DNA of 64,000 nt, from assembly GCA_000310025.1 (NCBI GenBank), contig FN648938.1:489406-553405 (forward strand). The letters are read 5' to 3'. The position numbers and the translations under genes were made by a program. Positions 9,200-48,600 of the stretch are shown in pieces; the first letter of the stretch is position 1; each line of letters begins with the position of its first letter. The notes beneath the pieces were generated by a model. That model saw nothing but the letters and a program-made list of their open reading frames with translations, was not told the origin of the DNA and searched no databases. This DNA comes from Ectocarpus siliculosus. Lineage: Eukaryota > Sar > Phaeophyceae > Ectocarpales > Ectocarpaceae.

Positions 9200-12100
9200 T
9201 TACTTTCCCTCTAATAGGGACAGTGCCTCGTCCACGAAGTCGCCTCCGTTCTTCTTGAACTCCATGCCGGCCTTGACGGCCTCGTCGAAGGCCTTCACCA
9301 CGTTCGTCCCGTCGGCCGCGGAGACGAAGAAAAAAGGGAGATCGTGCTGCTGGGCGAACTTGAAGCTCTTCTTCGTCACCTGTGGTTAGGGTACGTTTAC
9401 GTTGGCGGCGTGGATTGGGCAGGGGCGATATGTTAACGGTAATGGCGCAGGTTAACTTTGAGTCTTAAGGCATTCTCACTGATCATTGATTGATCATTTG
9501 CAAATACTGGTGTAGTGGCAAGTCGTGAAGTTGCCGCCCTGCAGCCCTTCGCGCCGTGTAGTCCATAGGTAGGTGTGTCTAGATTCTTAGCACCCGCGCT
9601 AACCACCTGACCAATGAAGAGACTTCAGTGACAGCGGGTAATATCAAGGTCTCGGGAATGGGGCCAATCAATTCCAAATCATGAATCTCTCAACGTATGT
9701 ACATGAACGCGTGTGTGCATACATACATACATACATATGTGTTCTTTCGAAGGTGTACCGATTCTGGTAAAAGTCAATCGATGGATACCCTGCGAATCGG
9801 GTCCTCTCTCCACCCACAGAATTTACCCTCAACTGGGAACCTTTTGTGGCCAGGACGGGTAATTCGATGGAAGTGTCACAAGCACACATCGGATAGATCA
9901 TGATCTAGATCATCTATGGTGTAGATCAAGAGCCGGTAGTATCACAGATGATCTGTGGAGTTTTAGATCAAGAGTCGGAAACATCCACAGATGATCTATG
10001 TAGTTATAGATCAGGAGCAGCAAACATGTGTAGATCTATCTGTCTGTGTCTATAGATCAAGAGTCGGAAACATCCACAGAAGATCTATGTAGTTATAGAT
10101 CAAGAGCAGCAAACATGTTCAGATCTATTTGTGTCTATAGATCAAGAGTCGGGAACAAGGACAGATCAACAGATCGCTATAGATCAAGAGTCGGGAACAA
10201 GGACAGATCAACAGATCGCTATAGATCAAGATTCGGAAACAAGGACAGATCGACAGATCGCTTTAGATCAAGCGTAGGAAACAAGGACAGATCGACAGAT
10301 TAGATCACTATAGATCAAGCGTCGGAAACAAGGACAGATCGACAGATCGCTATAGATCAAGAGCAGCAGACAATGTTGATGTTCCGATCTGTGTCTATAG
10401 ATGAGAGCCGGAAACAAGGACAGATGATCTGTGAGTTACAGATCGAGAGTGGCAAACATGTTCGGAGCTATCGATGTGCATAGATCAAGAGTCGGAATAT
10501 CAATATCACAGATGATCTGTGGATTATGGATCAAGGTTGGCATACATGTTCGGATGAATGGGAGTATGTATGTCTGCCCCGACACCACTCTGATACAATT
10601 GCACACCAAGATGTAAAGGTGAGCATTGTACAAGACGACGTAAATCTGAATGTAAATGTAAATGTGGTAGCAAAAACGTCGTGTCTACCCGCCCCCCCCC
10701 ACCTCTGAAGTAGCCCGGCCGCACGAAAATTGTTGTTCGCAAAATAAACGTACCAACAGCATTGTTGTTCATGTTGTCTTCGCATCACAAATTGTTCCGT
10801 TCTCTTTACCCAGTACCTTCTTCTGTCCGTACAAATCAAGCACTTGACGCGGTCGCCGTAGCACACACAAGAGAAGAAGCGAAAACCATGATTTTAAGCA
10901 ATACGCAAACAACAACGGCATCCGCAACGACGCAACCCCCCCCAGCCCCCGCCATTCAGATTCATGGTGATGCAATCTCGACCTCCAACGACTCGTCCGC
11001 GTATTCGTCGTTGTTGGTGTCCGGCACCACCTCGCCCACAGCGAGACTCTCCGTCTCCTCGCTTGGGTTGGAAAGCCGCCTTGGCACCGCCTTGATGCCA
11101 TCCGCCTTTGACAGTTTGGGCACCTCCAGCGGGATGTACTCTTGGTTGCCGTTGAGGAACAGCAGATGTATGCCACATCGGGAGTGTGGGAGCTGTGGGC
11201 TCTCTCGAGGAGCTGACGTGGCCCGTGACACGTGGTACGAAATACCACGTGATCTGTGGTCTACAGACCAAGAGCGGAAATACACCGATGACCTGTGGTC
11301 TACTACAGATCGAACTATCACCGATGACCTGTGGTCTACAGATGAGAGCAGCAACCATGTTCGGATCTATCTGTGTCTACATATATATGAAGAGTTGGAA
11401 ACATCACGGATGATCTGTGGTCTGCAGATCAAGAGTTGGAAATATCACAGATGATCTATGGTCTACAGATCAAGAGCAGCAGCCATGTTTGGATCTATCT
11501 TTGTCTATAGATCAGGAGTCGGAAACATCACAGATGATCTATGGTCTACAGATCAAGAGTCGGAAACATCCACAGATGATCTATGGTCGGAAACATCCAC
11601 AGATGATCAGATCAAGAGCAGCAAACATGTGTAGTCTATCTGTGTCTATAGATCAGGAGTCGGAAATATCCACAGATGATCTATGTAGTTATAGATCAAG
11701 AGCAGCAAACATGTGTAGATCTATCTGTGTCTATAGATCAGGAGTCGGAAATATCCACAGATCTATGTAGTTATAGATCAAGAGCAGCAAACATGTGTAG
11801 ATCTATCTGTGTCTTTAGATTCGGAAACAAGGACAGATCAACAGATCGCTATCGATTTTGGTGATCTGCGACCGAAATGATCTACAGTGATCTATAGAGA
11901 TCTGATCTATCCGATGTGTGCAAGGTTCTTTATAGGATCGATTCCAAGAGGTGTTCTCAGGACTGACACGCATATTGTGTCCATGGAAAAATGTCCAAGT
12001 CAGGAGAAAAAATGTGCACCCAAGGAGATTCGAACCAGTACCCTGCTGACGCCATATATATGCGAAGGTGCACCGATTCTGGTAAAAGTCAATCGACGGA

Positions 12101-42833: not shown

Positions 42834-43037
42834 GCCAACGTGCTGCTTTCATCGGAGAGCGGTCTGTAGGTACTAAAAAACCAAATACCCGTAGTAACTC
42901 TTTGAGTTTCTAGACCACAACGCGATCAACGAAACTGATGTGTGCTCTGCTGGATGTCAACTTCATGCCAACGTGCTGCTTTCATCGGAGAGCGGTCTGT
43001 AGGTACTACGTCAATGAAAAACCCGTCAACGACTCTT
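42834..43037 (-). repeat. Left arm of inverted 135-bp repeat array
   Basis: About one and a half copies of the 135-bp unit found to the right of the gap, in the opposite orientation. Landmarks are gtgctgctttcatcggagag, ctgtaggtacta, tctagaccacaacgcgatca and gtgtgctctgctggatgtca. The first copy is diverged around 42875-42900. Confidence 0.9.
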
Positions 43038-43137
43038 NNNNNNNNNNNNNNNNNNNNNNNNNNNNNNNNNNNNNNNNNNNNNNNNNNNNNNNNNNNNNNN
43101 NNNNNNNNNNNNNNNNNNNNNNNNNNNNNNNNNNNNN
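43038..43137. other. Assembly gap (100 N)
   Basis: Exactly 100 N. It sits at the centre of an inverted repeat array, so true length and copy number are unknown; a fixed 100-N run usually marks a gap of unknown size. Frames spanning it are not meaningful. Confidence 1.
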
Positions 43138-43513
43138 GATGAAAGCAGCACGTTGGCATGAAGTTGACATCCAGCAGAGCACACATCAGTTTCGTTGATC
43201 GCGTTGTGGTCTAGAAACTCAAAGAGTCGTTGACGGGTATTTCATTCACGTAGTACCTACAGACCGCTCTCCGATGAAAGCAGCACGTTGGCATGAAGTT
43301 GACATCCAGCAGAGCACACATCAGTTTCGTTGATCGCGTTGTGGTCTAGAAACTCAAAGAGTCGTTGACGGGTATTTCATTCACGTAGTACCTACAGACC
43401 GCTCTCCGATGAAAGCAGCACGTTGGCATGAAGTTGACATCCAGCAGAGCACACATCAGTTTCGTTGATCGCGTTGTGGTCTAGAAACTCAAAGAGTCGT
43501 TGACGGGTATTTC
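43138..43513 (+). repeat. Right arm: 135-bp tandem repeats
   Basis: Copies start at 43138, 43273 and 43408 (spacing exactly 135 bp), the last one partial, ending about 43513. Each begins gatgaaagcagcacgttggc. The copies look essentially identical to each other, which suggests recent amplification. Confidence 0.95.
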
Positions 43514-45660
43514 TTTGTTGGTCAAGAGTCACACTTGGCTTTTTTTCTACCTCAGACCCGAGCATTCAATCGCGCAAGGCTCGTTGCATTGAGTACCTGC
43601 GATATCAAGATCTTTCAACGCACAGGATCACGACCCATGTCCGGGACTATCGATCGCTGTCTGGGATGCCCTGCTCTCGCGGTCATGATTTGAATCATAG
43701 ACACGGGCACTTTCGGTTTTTCCGAACCGTTCTCGATTGATTCTCGATTTCAATGCAACCCCACTCGAGTACATACAAAGCCAACTCGAAACCTTAACTC
43801 GAAAGTCGAATTCGACCAGATATCGCACCTTCTTCTCAAGAAAGAATCTTGCCGCTGACCACTCTGAATGTATTACCCATAGACCATACCGGTCAACCCG
43901 TCGCTTGTATCACGTGCCGAACGTATCGATACCCTCTGTCTGGTACTCTTGGCAATTGGGGCGCGACAGGTGACACAAATTGTTCAACGTGAAAGACTTG
44001 GCGTTTTCCAGGGAAACCTCCTGACACATGTGTACGCCTCCTACATATGTGCAAGCCGTTTCCTTGTGTTGCAACGGGATACAGTACAAGTATTGCCCTT
44101 CAGTGTTCCCTGTCTACTTAAAACTTGACATAGCTGGCACAAACAGGAGGAGAACAACAAAGCCAGGGCTCCACCAAAAACACCGACACATATCACGAAG
44201 CAATCAAATTTGGGCGGCAGCAAGCCTCAGGAAGGACACGAGAACACAAGGCGGGGGGCAAAGGGCTGTCATCGCTACAAGACACCGCCGTTGCGACCAC
44301 GCACGTTTGTTTGAGGCATCATAGAGAAAACGTCGATACTTCGGGAAACGCCTTGCCTAATCATACGGTCATACTATTAATTCATGTTGCGAAAGTATTA
44401 CACAGTAGCGAAAGGAGACAACTACAGGATGTGTGCGTGCGTGGAAGCAGTGCCGCTCGTCCGTTTCCTGCAATGGCAGAGCTGATGAACCAACAACAGA
44501 CTACCATTCACAAACAGACCCATACAAGCCAGGCAAGAGCGTGCCACCCACTCTATCGTATCTACACACCCATCTACGCATCACTCCAGATACGAGCAGC
44601 CGCCCCGTGCAGGGGGGGGCATACCTGGGCGCAGGAGGAAAACTCTGTGTTAACCTTATCCACACGACAGCAAGAATAATATATTAATAGTATTACAGTA
44701 AACCAAAATTGCAAAGTGCTACAAGGAGTAAAGCCGGCTCCATTCTCCTCAAGCGCCACGACTGCACACCCGGCTGCGGGATGACAACTTTTCGCGGGCG
44801 AAGCATCAACTCTACTGCCTCAGGGTAGAGACAAGGCTCGAAATCCCACAGCGAACCTCGAAAAGAGGCTAACGCAGAGCTCTATTGTTGACGTGGTCGG
44901 AGAGTTCAGCTACCGAAACCCTTCCGTGAAATTTGCAATCACAATATCAGCACGATATCCTTCGAACACCGTTCTGGCGTCAGTTATCTGCGTGGCGCCA
45001 AAACGGGAAAAATAATGATCAGTTCCAAAGATTGTTCACCAAAACATCCGGGGACGGGCTTGAGGCTAGGCCGCACTTGGTTGGATGGCAACTTTCGTGT
45101 TGCGGAACAAGCATTATTGCTACGCGTGAATCGTGCTTCAAATGGCGGCCGGGGATGTCAAATCCGATGTCCCGACTCACCATGTGCGGCGAACGTTCAG
45201 ATAAAACAGCATTTCATCTCCTCCCTATCTATGCGCTGCACTTTCATCCTTGAGCTTTGACGTATCCCGGTCTCGGGAACATTACGTTTTGGCGACAACA
45301 ACGGCCAAACTGCGACACCCAGGCGCTGATGAAGGCGCTGATGGAAAACGGCTACCTAGAGCAGTTTTTCATTTTGCACCCATTCAAAGGCAATTCCTAG
45401 CATTGAGAGCAAGTCGAGTGTCGGGCAGACACATGTACTCGATACGCTTCTCAGTGGCGACGAAGTGCGACGAACCAAGAAGCGTGTCCGTTATCTACAC
45501 CATTAGTATGTTGAACTTATCGTGTTCCTTCCGAACTCTCCGCGTACCCAGCTGTCTTGGGAACTTGTCAAATCGTCCCCTAAATAGGTGCTGTTAACCG
45601 TAGCGACATACCATGGTAGAAACTATGACTTACCCCGGGGCTTTGTTGCGTCTTCAGAAT
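43514..45660. other. Intergenic region downstream of the epimerase gene
   Basis: No supported gene. It lies 3' of the epimerase gene (minus strand) and must contain its 3' UTR next to 45660. Frames here are short and carry no motif I recognise. Confidence 0.5.
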
Positions 45661-48600
45661 TCAGATGATGCACGGGGCTGCGTTGGTGTCCTCGCAGTAC
45701 ACGTTGCCAGCCAATACCTCTGAGCTGCAGCAAGATGCACCGTCGAGCCCGTTCGCGGAGCCAGCCGAACCGCATCCCGACCCCCCGCACTGACCACAGG
45801 CAAGCGGACAGCAGACTTCGCCCTTGTGGTCGATTCCTTCGATACCGTTGCTGCAAGTCTGTGTTTCGTCAGCTGATTCATCAGCTGATTCGTCAGCTGA
45901 TTCATCAGCTGATTCGTCAGCTGATTCATCAGCTGATTCGTCAGCTGATTCATCAGCTGATTCGTCAGCTGATTCATCAGCTGATTCGTCAGCTGATTCA
46001 TCAGCTGATTCGTCAGCTGATTCATCAGCTGATTCGTCAGCTGATTCATCAGCTGATTCGTCAGCTGATTCATCAGCTGATTCGTCAGCTGATTCATCAG
46101 CTGATTCGTCAGCTGATTCATCAGCTGATTCGTCAGCTGATTCATCAGCTGATTCGTCAGCTGATTCGGAATCGATATCATCTGTCCGGAGGAAACACGC
46201 ACCGTAGTGTCGAGCATTCATGTGCGGGCGGTGTTCTCTTTAGGACGCGGGTGTAATGGCGTGTCTCTATTTCTGCCGGCGATTTGGTCTGATGGAAACA
46301 GACTCTGAATGACGTGGAATTTATGCCAGGGCTTTCACTCACCGGTGTCCGGCCGGCTGCCGATGATGCACGGGGCTTCGTTGGTGTCATCACAGTACAG
46401 GCCGAGAGACTTCACCCCGTTACCGCAGCATGACTCCGAGCCGAGACCATTTGCAGATCCAGCCGTACCGCATCCATCCCCCGCGCACTGACCACAGCCG
46501 ATCGGACAGCAGACGACGCCATTCCCGTCGATGCCTTCGGTACCGTCGCTGCACGTCTGTGTTTCGTCAGCTGATTCGGAATCGACATCATCTGTCCGGA
46601 GGAATCACGATACGTAAGGTGGGGGCGAGGGTTCTTACGCGAGGCGTTTGCTCTTGCCGGTATCGGGTAGCCTCGTCACTCTTCTCTGGATCCCATTTTG
46701 TATGTGTAAGGCTCTGAACGAATGGTAGGAATTAATTGTAGGATTCTGCCAGGGCTTCCAATCACCACCACCCGGCAGACTACCGATCATGCACGGGGCT
46801 GTGTTCGTCTCATCACAACGAGTCTTTAGCCAGTACATCTGCTGTGCTGCAGAAAAACTCACTTCCGAGACCGTTGGCAACACTACCGTAACATAGATGT
46901 AGCACACCCCGTCCCGCAGCATTGACCACCGGCAAGCGAACAGCATGCTGTGCGCTTGCGACCGGTGTCTTCGATGCCGTTGTTGAGTGTGTCGGCTGCC
47001 GTAACTCAATCTGATCCGTCATGTGTCCGTAGTACACACCCCACATCGCGTGGGGTCGAGGATTCAATGCGAGCGGCGCTCTTTATATTCAGGAATGCGT
47101 ACATTGCGTGCCTCTATTTCTCTGCCGCAAATACTACAATATAAACGATAGACTTTGTGCGTACGTTGTGGGTGAACTGTTGTATCTGCCAGGGCTCCCA
47201 CTCACCGGTGTCCGGCCGGCTGCCGATGATGCACGGGGCTTCGTTGGTGTCATCACAGTACAGGCCGAGAGATTTCACCCCGTTACCGCAGCATGACTCC
47301 GAGCCGAGACCATTTGCAGATCCAGCCGTACCGCATCCATCCCCCGCGCACTGACCACAGCCGATCGGACAGCAGACGACGCCATTCCCGTCGATGCCTT
47401 CGGTACCGTCGCTGCACGTCTGTGTTTCGTCAGCTGATTCGGAATCGACATCATCTGTCCGGACGAATTACGTCGCGTACAGGAGCGTCAAGGATTCACT
47501 GCGGGTGGTGCTCCCTTGCAGGAAAAGGCAACAGTACTTGATACGTTGCTCATTTTGCGTCTGTGTGCATGCGTCATACGGGTAGACCGTAAAATCTAAC
47601 AGGGCTCCCACTCACCGGTATCAGGCCGGCTGCCGATGATGCACGGGGCTTCGTTGGTGTCATCACAGTACAGGCCGAGAGACTTCACACCGCCCCCACA
47701 GCATGACTCCGAGCCGAGACCATTTGCAGATCCAGCCGTACCGCATCCATCCCCTGCGCACTGACCACAGCCGATCGGACAGCAGACGACGCCGTTCCCG
47801 TCGATGCCTTCGGTACCATCGCTGCACGTCTGTGTTTCGTCCGCTGATTCGGAATCGACATCATCTGTCGGGACAACAGGATCATCTGTCGGGACAACAG
47901 GATCATCTGTCGGGACAACAGGATCATCTGTTGGGACAACAGCATCATCTGTTGGGAGGAACCGAGTACAGAACGTCAGAATGGATCAACAGGTTAGCGG
48001 CGGTTGAGTGGCTTTAAATGACTGCATCGTTTTCACACGGGCGCTGATCTATTACGCCTGAGTGGGAACATACCCCTCGTTATGACTTGTCCGCCTAAGC
48101 TACATGGTGTGCACCCTTGAAGAGCGACGCGGTTGATTCCGACCGCGAATGAGTAGATCGGTCCGTCTTGAGCGTGTTCTGCAAACCGATACACTGCCCT
48201 GACACTGACAACCCTCCCTCACGCAGGAAACGAGAATGGAGAGGATGGTCGTTTTTTTTTTTTGCGTAAATTTAGAGGATCCCAGGGGTTTAAGTCCTCG
48301 GGCGCAATAACCATCTTTATCCTGAGACTGTTCCGTCCACGACAAGAAGACATGTCGACACACCACACACACACCTGTTCCGTCGCACAAAGGCACGCCC
48401 GGGACATCCGTTCCGGTGGAAAAGCACGAGTTGGTAACCGAGAACTCGAAGCTGGAATCTGTGAACGTATTGTCGCGGACCAGGTTGTTGGTGCTATCTT
48501 CGAAAATAGCCTTCGACCCACTGTGGAACGTGTTGTCCTGCATATAGGTGCAGTGAACAACACGAACAGGGAGCGAGGAAACATGTGATATATGGTGTGG

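Follow-up and report, generated by a model that had tools for sequence, protein, structure and literature searches.

A repeated cysteine-rich module on a brown-algal mannuronan C5-epimerase: bacterial relatives and probable exon-by-exon homogenisation

Judged by homology, the 64,000-nucleotide stretch of Ectocarpus siliculosus DNA analysed here (the window; contig FN648938.1, positions 489,406 to 553,405) holds the 3' end of a gene for a brown-algal, AlgG-type mannuronan C5-epimerase. The predicted enzyme ends in four cysteine-rich modules, and the best explanation overall, which we hold with moderate confidence, is that these are copies of an unnamed accessory domain of polysaccharide enzymes, carried here by an epimerase and converted exon by exon. 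The anatomy of the exons is sound and proves richer than a sequence-only reading of the same DNA had indicated; the function of the module is a reasoned guess. The stiffness of alginate is set by epimerases, of which brown algae have many, and a repeatable accessory domain with a changeable number of copies and a changeable linker would offer one source of their variety.

The epimerase gene and its module exons

The resolved part of the gene, its 3' end, extends from 55319 to 45661. Its 13 minus-strand exons have AG/GT borders and join in consistent phase with no stop; the first nine (55319 to 48375) are catalytic and the last four encode the modules (Table 1). The interval 45661-48537, in which the tail had originally been noticed, has as its exact limits the first base of EI, the last catalytic exon, and the final base of the stop codon. 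For the catalytic part, the PDB matches were AlgG (4OZY, E 4.8e-11, residues 14-161 of 273; 4NK6, E 6.6e-11) and AlgE4 (2PYG, E 9.7e-10), and the Pfam matches were Beta_helix (3.8e-24) and NosD (1.2e-19), as for a right-handed beta-helix related to AlgG. The DPHD motif is present as GYGFDPHDDS across exons EB-EC, aligned to YGIDPHDRS of 4OZY. No further copy of the catalytic part or of the module was seen elsewhere in the window, and tRNA and Rfam searches gave no match.

According to the available part of one study, the ManC5-E enzymes form a large gene family in brown algae and, among stramenopiles, are found outside the brown algae solely in the sister species S. ischiensis (PMC11468063). 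The DPHD motif and the beta-helix are features that the present gene has in common with ManC5-E and bacterial AlgG; the four-module cysteine-rich tail sets it apart, no such tail having been found in the accessible portions of the descriptions of either.

Table 1. Exons, decayed module copy and tandem arrays of the epimerase gene, in the direction of transcription (positions in the window)
Feature	Position	Strand	Basis
Catalytic exon EA	55319-55254	-	phase join without stop
Catalytic exon EB	54403-54328	-	phase join without stop
Catalytic exon EC, carries DPHD motif	53696-53647	-	phase join without stop; structure and Pfam matches
Catalytic exon ED	53271-53244	-	phase join without stop
Catalytic exon EE	52876-52833	-	phase join without stop
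Catalytic exon EF	51981-51825	-	phase join without stop
Catalytic exon EG	50694-50596	-	phase join without stop
Catalytic exon EH	50038-49902	-	phase join without stop
Last catalytic exon EI, phase-1 donor into tail	48537-48375	-	exon joining
21-nt tandem array over M1 acceptor, 4.7 copies, 97% matches	47957-47860	-	repeat search
Module exon M1, phase 1-1, PTDDPVV-repeat linker	47948-47616	-	tblastn, exon joining, copy comparison
Module exon M2, phase 1-1	47454-47206	-	tblastn, exon joining, copy comparison
Decayed fifth copy R and start of its downstream intron	about 47025-46745	-	alignment, shuffles, tblastn
Module exon M3, phase 1-1	46591-46343	-	tblastn, exon joining, copy comparison
Terminal exon M4, diverged module, enters phase 1, ends in TGA	46181-45661	-	tblastn, exon joining
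Perfect 24-nt tandem array, 12.6 copies, 100% matches, codes M4 ESAD-repeat linker	46167-45865	-	repeat search

A tblastn search of the window with M1 recovered four copies at E 2.5e-50 to 6.6e-19, values that put chance out of the question. Borders, phases and nucleotide comparison bear out the earlier description of three near-identical phase 1-1 exons followed by a diverged terminal copy: over the shared 249 nt, M1 differs from M2 at 12 positions and from M3 at 11, and M2 differs from M3 at just 1 (99.6% identical); the M4 protein is 68-69% identical to the other modules. About ten cysteines had been claimed for each module, and the count is exactly 10 in each of M1-M4.

Descent of the module copies

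A fifth copy, R, which had been overlooked, sits between M2 and M3. Its identity to each of the four living copies is 67-72% and its alignment scores are 114-157, where 200 shuffles per copy reached no more than 36; it is closest to M4 (score 157). The acceptor, CAG in the other copies, has become CAC in R, the donor GTGAGT has become GTGATT, and the reading frame is split over three frames.

The introns between the copies are also related. By one method 64-74% of their aligned columns are identical, a figure that alone says little, since shuffles reach 64-65% at the same loose gap costs; it is the scores that differ. MAFFT gave 53-59% identity (JC 0.59-0.74). With the splice-proximal ends removed, the intron interiors of five of the six pairs scored above all 300 dinucleotide shuffles, the score of the sixth (I1/I2b) being reached by 5 of 300; local alignment of the interiors placed four of the six pairs above all shuffles, with 1/300 reaching I2a/I2b and 120/300 reaching I1/I2b. 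In 12 control pairs, formed with the gene's other introns, 7 to 170 of 200 shuffles reached the score. We therefore consider the introns between the copies to be old relatives, I1/I2b being the weakest case.

The exons have diverged less. Ks is lowest for M2/M3, at 0.019; M1 compared with M2 and M3 gives 0.14-0.17, and M4 compared with the other three gives 0.40-0.55. Between M2 and M3 there is at most one synonymous change in 54 sites, for which P is at most 1.7e-6 at intron-like divergence (even at 26%), and their near-identity extends beyond the exon by 9 nt on the upstream side and 7 nt on the downstream side. For M1 there are 8 synonymous changes in 54 sites (P 0.037 at 26% divergence, 0.0005 at 36%), and here the sequence makes a weaker case for conversion. 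Such old, diverged introns between exons so alike call for homogenisation of M1-M3 by gene conversion. An exon together with its intron would have been duplicated long ago, one copy, R, would have died, and exon-limited conversion, halting where the diverged introns start, would keep M1-M3 alike. For the one haplotype covered, a draft sequence with a gap nearby, this history appears very probable. The idea that the tail grew by symmetric exon duplication consequently survives in part: the phases agree with it, as does the dead fifth copy, but recent duplication by itself does not account for how alike M1-M3 are.

Two readings would dispense with conversion. If M2 and M3 were a young tandem duplicate, arising by plain exon duplication, their 99.6% identity would follow, and symmetric exons arise most simply by tandem exon duplication; however, similar introns would then be expected, in place of introns 53-59% identical, and a decayed copy would hardly be expected to stand between the two. 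This is very improbable, and recent plain duplication as such was rejected because the diverged introns contradict it. Least probable of all is that strong constraint on the DNA, for example by splicing signals, holds the synonymous sites alike: although the first intron bases are conserved too (16 nt identical in M1 and M2), and copy R retains GAAGCCCTGGCAG-like intron sequence, M4 encodes the same module with a Ks of 0.40-0.55 to the other copies, so that the synonymous sites of the module are free to change, and constraint on the exon DNA was rejected on that ground. Duplication of one segment during assembly was likewise rejected, because the introns differ.

Downstream of the module donors, conservation covers the first ~16 bases of the intron, GCCCTG among them (47205-47184, 46765-46745, 47615-47600), and this holds even in copy R. 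Perhaps these bases are a splicing signal, or else the edge of conversion tracts.

Brown algal ROCO genes, in which each symmetric exon encodes one LRR, likewise show exon duplication and shuffling; the paper that describes them (PMC11378527) never uses the term gene conversion. The epimerase modules resemble these LRR exons in placing one protein repeat on each symmetric exon, but they are 249-nt, phase 1-1 exons of a cell-wall enzyme, whereas the LRR exons are of 72 bp and phase 2. Conversion exon by exon, with a dead copy left between living ones, would be a small but clear example of how copies are born, die and are homogenised inside a single gene.

Relatives and possible role of the module

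The family of the module had not been recognised from the sequence, and the searches of Pfam, NCBIfam and PDB leave it equally unnamed, with no well-described domain of different function among their results. Modules M2/M3 and M4 matched no Pfam family at E up to 10, which applies to the WSC domain as well; there was no match in NCBIfam at E 1 or, by profile, in PDB at E 10, and a PDB sequence search with one module returned two matches (E 0.42 and 0.76) that we take as chance. The EsV-1-7 family is also cysteine-rich, and has a Cys/His motif; M1-M3 contain no His, and again no Pfam family was found. None of six module peptides occurred in any paper searched, and no description of the module was found among the papers listed. 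AlphaFold modelled the algal module poorly (pLDDT 62.7) and a bacterial member with pLDDT 82.5 in one model and 44.7-52.0 in the other four; Foldseek found no fold match for the model of the bacterial member.

Relatives do exist in bacteria. A DNA pattern for the central motif, CC-x3-CG-x-CGG-x-GC, which imposes only six Cys, retrieved 50 bacterial contigs, 24 of which encode, on inspection, the full ten-cysteine module; the remaining 26 appear to be chance hits. Of the 24 proteins, 15 pass the HMMER inclusion threshold with an algal-only profile in what is a small, preselected set, and the other nine score weakly. Alignment A1 of the module (27 rows) has 14 invariant columns, all Cys, Gly or Pro. 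Genome surveys added three full-length relatives beyond the pattern contigs (L075, L076 and L077), L073 being the L006 protein again. One carrier, L028, is recorded as coming from a cultured isolate, Microbulbifer okhotskensis, so the bacterial presence of the module is not confined to metagenome bins.

The taxon surveys used profile A1 at E 0.001; the group names are inferred, and the samples overlap and include the centre genomes. Matches were found in 8/188 Myxococcota, 1/274 Gammaproteobacteria, 3/100 members of the family of L028, 2/145 and 4/144 members of the orders of L024 and L043, 2/58 of the class of L009 and 5/112 of the phylum of L048. Surveyed with no positive control, Bacteroidota (0/247) and Verrucomicrobiota (0/194) gave none, and the single matches in Planctomycetota (1/199) and Actinomycetota (1/296) were fragments of 21-24 positions, taken as chance. 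The distribution of the module in these surveys is rare and patchy. A phage search for relatives gave two unrelated weak matches, and viral contigs gave no relatives and one chance match.

The partner of the bacterial module is PL14 in L028, L075 and L076 (Pfam E 1.2e-32, 3.4e-35 and 5.7e-36, respectively), and the best PDB match of L028 is an alginate lyase (1e-17). A GH16 partner is confirmed in L024 (Pfam 4.5e-16, with beta-glucanases as the PDB matches), which L023 resembles by eye. Nineteen of the 24 proteins share, also by eye, one beta-helix-like and weakly lyase-like architecture; the four of these partners that were checked gave no Pfam family above cut-off, and L003 matched the NCBIfam BT3328 hyaluronic acid endo-lyase at 2.1e-10, with 39.5 bits against a cut-off of 1100. 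No Pfam partner family was recognised in L009 or L048. L003, L043, L013 and others are beta-helix-like secreted proteins of Myxococcota-type bins with the module at the end; judging from their sequences, they possibly form an undescribed polysaccharide lyase family. In 23 of the 24 proteins, 2-11 residues separate the last cysteine from the stop. The exception, with the sole non-terminal module, is L048 (1-394 aa) from a bacterial bin, in which 270 residues follow the module and include a C-terminal domain of ~250 residues; the second half of the protein had no match in PDB.

By these sequence comparisons, the module is an accessory domain, without a name in the libraries searched, that is common to a brown-algal epimerase and bacterial enzymes. 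The recognised partners have a polysaccharide substrate in common, alginate in the clearest cases, and holding on to a polymer or to the wall is for this reason the best guess: the module is probably wall- or alginate-binding, a property we infer from its carriers. The suggestion that it anchors the epimerase in the wall or binds alginate gains from the bacterial relatives on polysaccharide-active enzymes, the role itself being putative. A domain found on bacterial alginate lyases and missing from the family libraries searched could also be a new alginate-binding or alginate-modifying tool.

A parallel in layout is found in Azotobacter AlgE, whose R-modules, as the accessible part of one account describes them, are tandem CBMs, one to seven of them after the catalytic module, that raise epimerase activity (PMC12269086). 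The present enzyme, too, has a catalytic module followed by repeated modules. R-modules are defined by repeat-in-toxin repeats, which form a calcium-binding beta-roll. That family was absent from a Pfam scan of the catalytic part with M1 and M2, which returned Beta_helix and NosD only, and the ten-cysteine module is unrelated to the R-modules; the likeness is one of plan only. By analogy, the modules would hold the epimerase on alginate or another wall polymer, and the copy number and the flexible acidic linkers would tune avidity and reach, a proposal over which we are evenly divided. Among alginate lyases, CBMs are often in tandem, according to the available portion of a further paper (PMC9971899). 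Like CBM96 and the other CBMs of those lyases, the modules are non-catalytic parts of alginate enzymes; in Pfam, the algal module shows no match at E 10. Ectocarpus relatives of the alginate lyase SjAly, with C-terminal extensions, are also counted among the closest known systems.

The module is, as a CBM should be, a discrete domain on carbohydrate-active enzymes (three PL14, one confirmed GH16 and the AlgG-type epimerase). Conserved aromatic binding residues are common, if not universal, in CBMs. Among 30 modules we counted 0-4 aromatics per module, none of them in the invariant or nearly invariant columns of A1 or A2; the algal modules are acidic, with a net charge of -6 to -7, and contain a single aromatic residue apiece. 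Acidity and the lack of a conserved aromatic tell against a classical CBM, and would be awkward for the binding of a polyanion unless Ca2+ bridges the two; calcium bridging, or another wall component as the ligand, would reconcile acidic modules with binding.

The main rival to polysaccharide binding gives the module a different task in secreted enzymes, as a disulphide-rich structural cap or a protein-protein dock. Invariant residues that are solely Cys, Gly and Pro, few aromatics and a variable charge would all suit such a role, as would the bacterial modules that end 2-11 residues before the stop (23/24). We nevertheless think it unlikely, for the PL14, GH16 and AlgG-type carriers have a polysaccharide substrate in common, and four tandem copies on long linkers are more than a cap would need. 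A C-terminal sorting or surface-attachment signal is improbable: the module is C-terminal in 23 of the 24 bacterial proteins and in M4, but M1-M3 are internal and 270 residues follow the module in L048.

Linkers and other tandem repeats

The array over the M1 acceptor includes five acceptor-like sites (ACAG|ATGAT), which would start the exon at 47948, 47927, 47906, 47885 or 47864, all in the same phase; the acceptor as modelled is the first of the five. M2, M3 and M4 have one such site each, at the position that matches the fifth of M1. Duplication of the splice acceptor therefore appears to be the origin of the PTDDPVV linker and, from the sequence of these sites, the choice of acceptor at M1 could alter the length of the linker in seven-residue steps.

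A more far-reaching reading, which we offer tentatively and regard as somewhat doubtful, is that the module founds a new alginate- or uronan-binding family of brown algae and bacteria, the alga having converged on the AlgE design by exon duplication, with exon-limited conversion and a splice-acceptor minisatellite that sets the linker length, possibly variably by way of the five in-phase acceptors.

Two other repeat regions were noticed in the window. At 42897-43542, a 100-N gap separates 135-nt tandem repeats from inverted copies (141 nt, 99% complementary), an arrangement that may reflect either a hairpin-like repeat or a fault in the assembly. The region 9922-11820 holds several arrays whose tandem repeats, of 41-47 nt and 82-124 nt, are related and have AGATCAAGAG(T/C)CGGAAACAT-like units in common.
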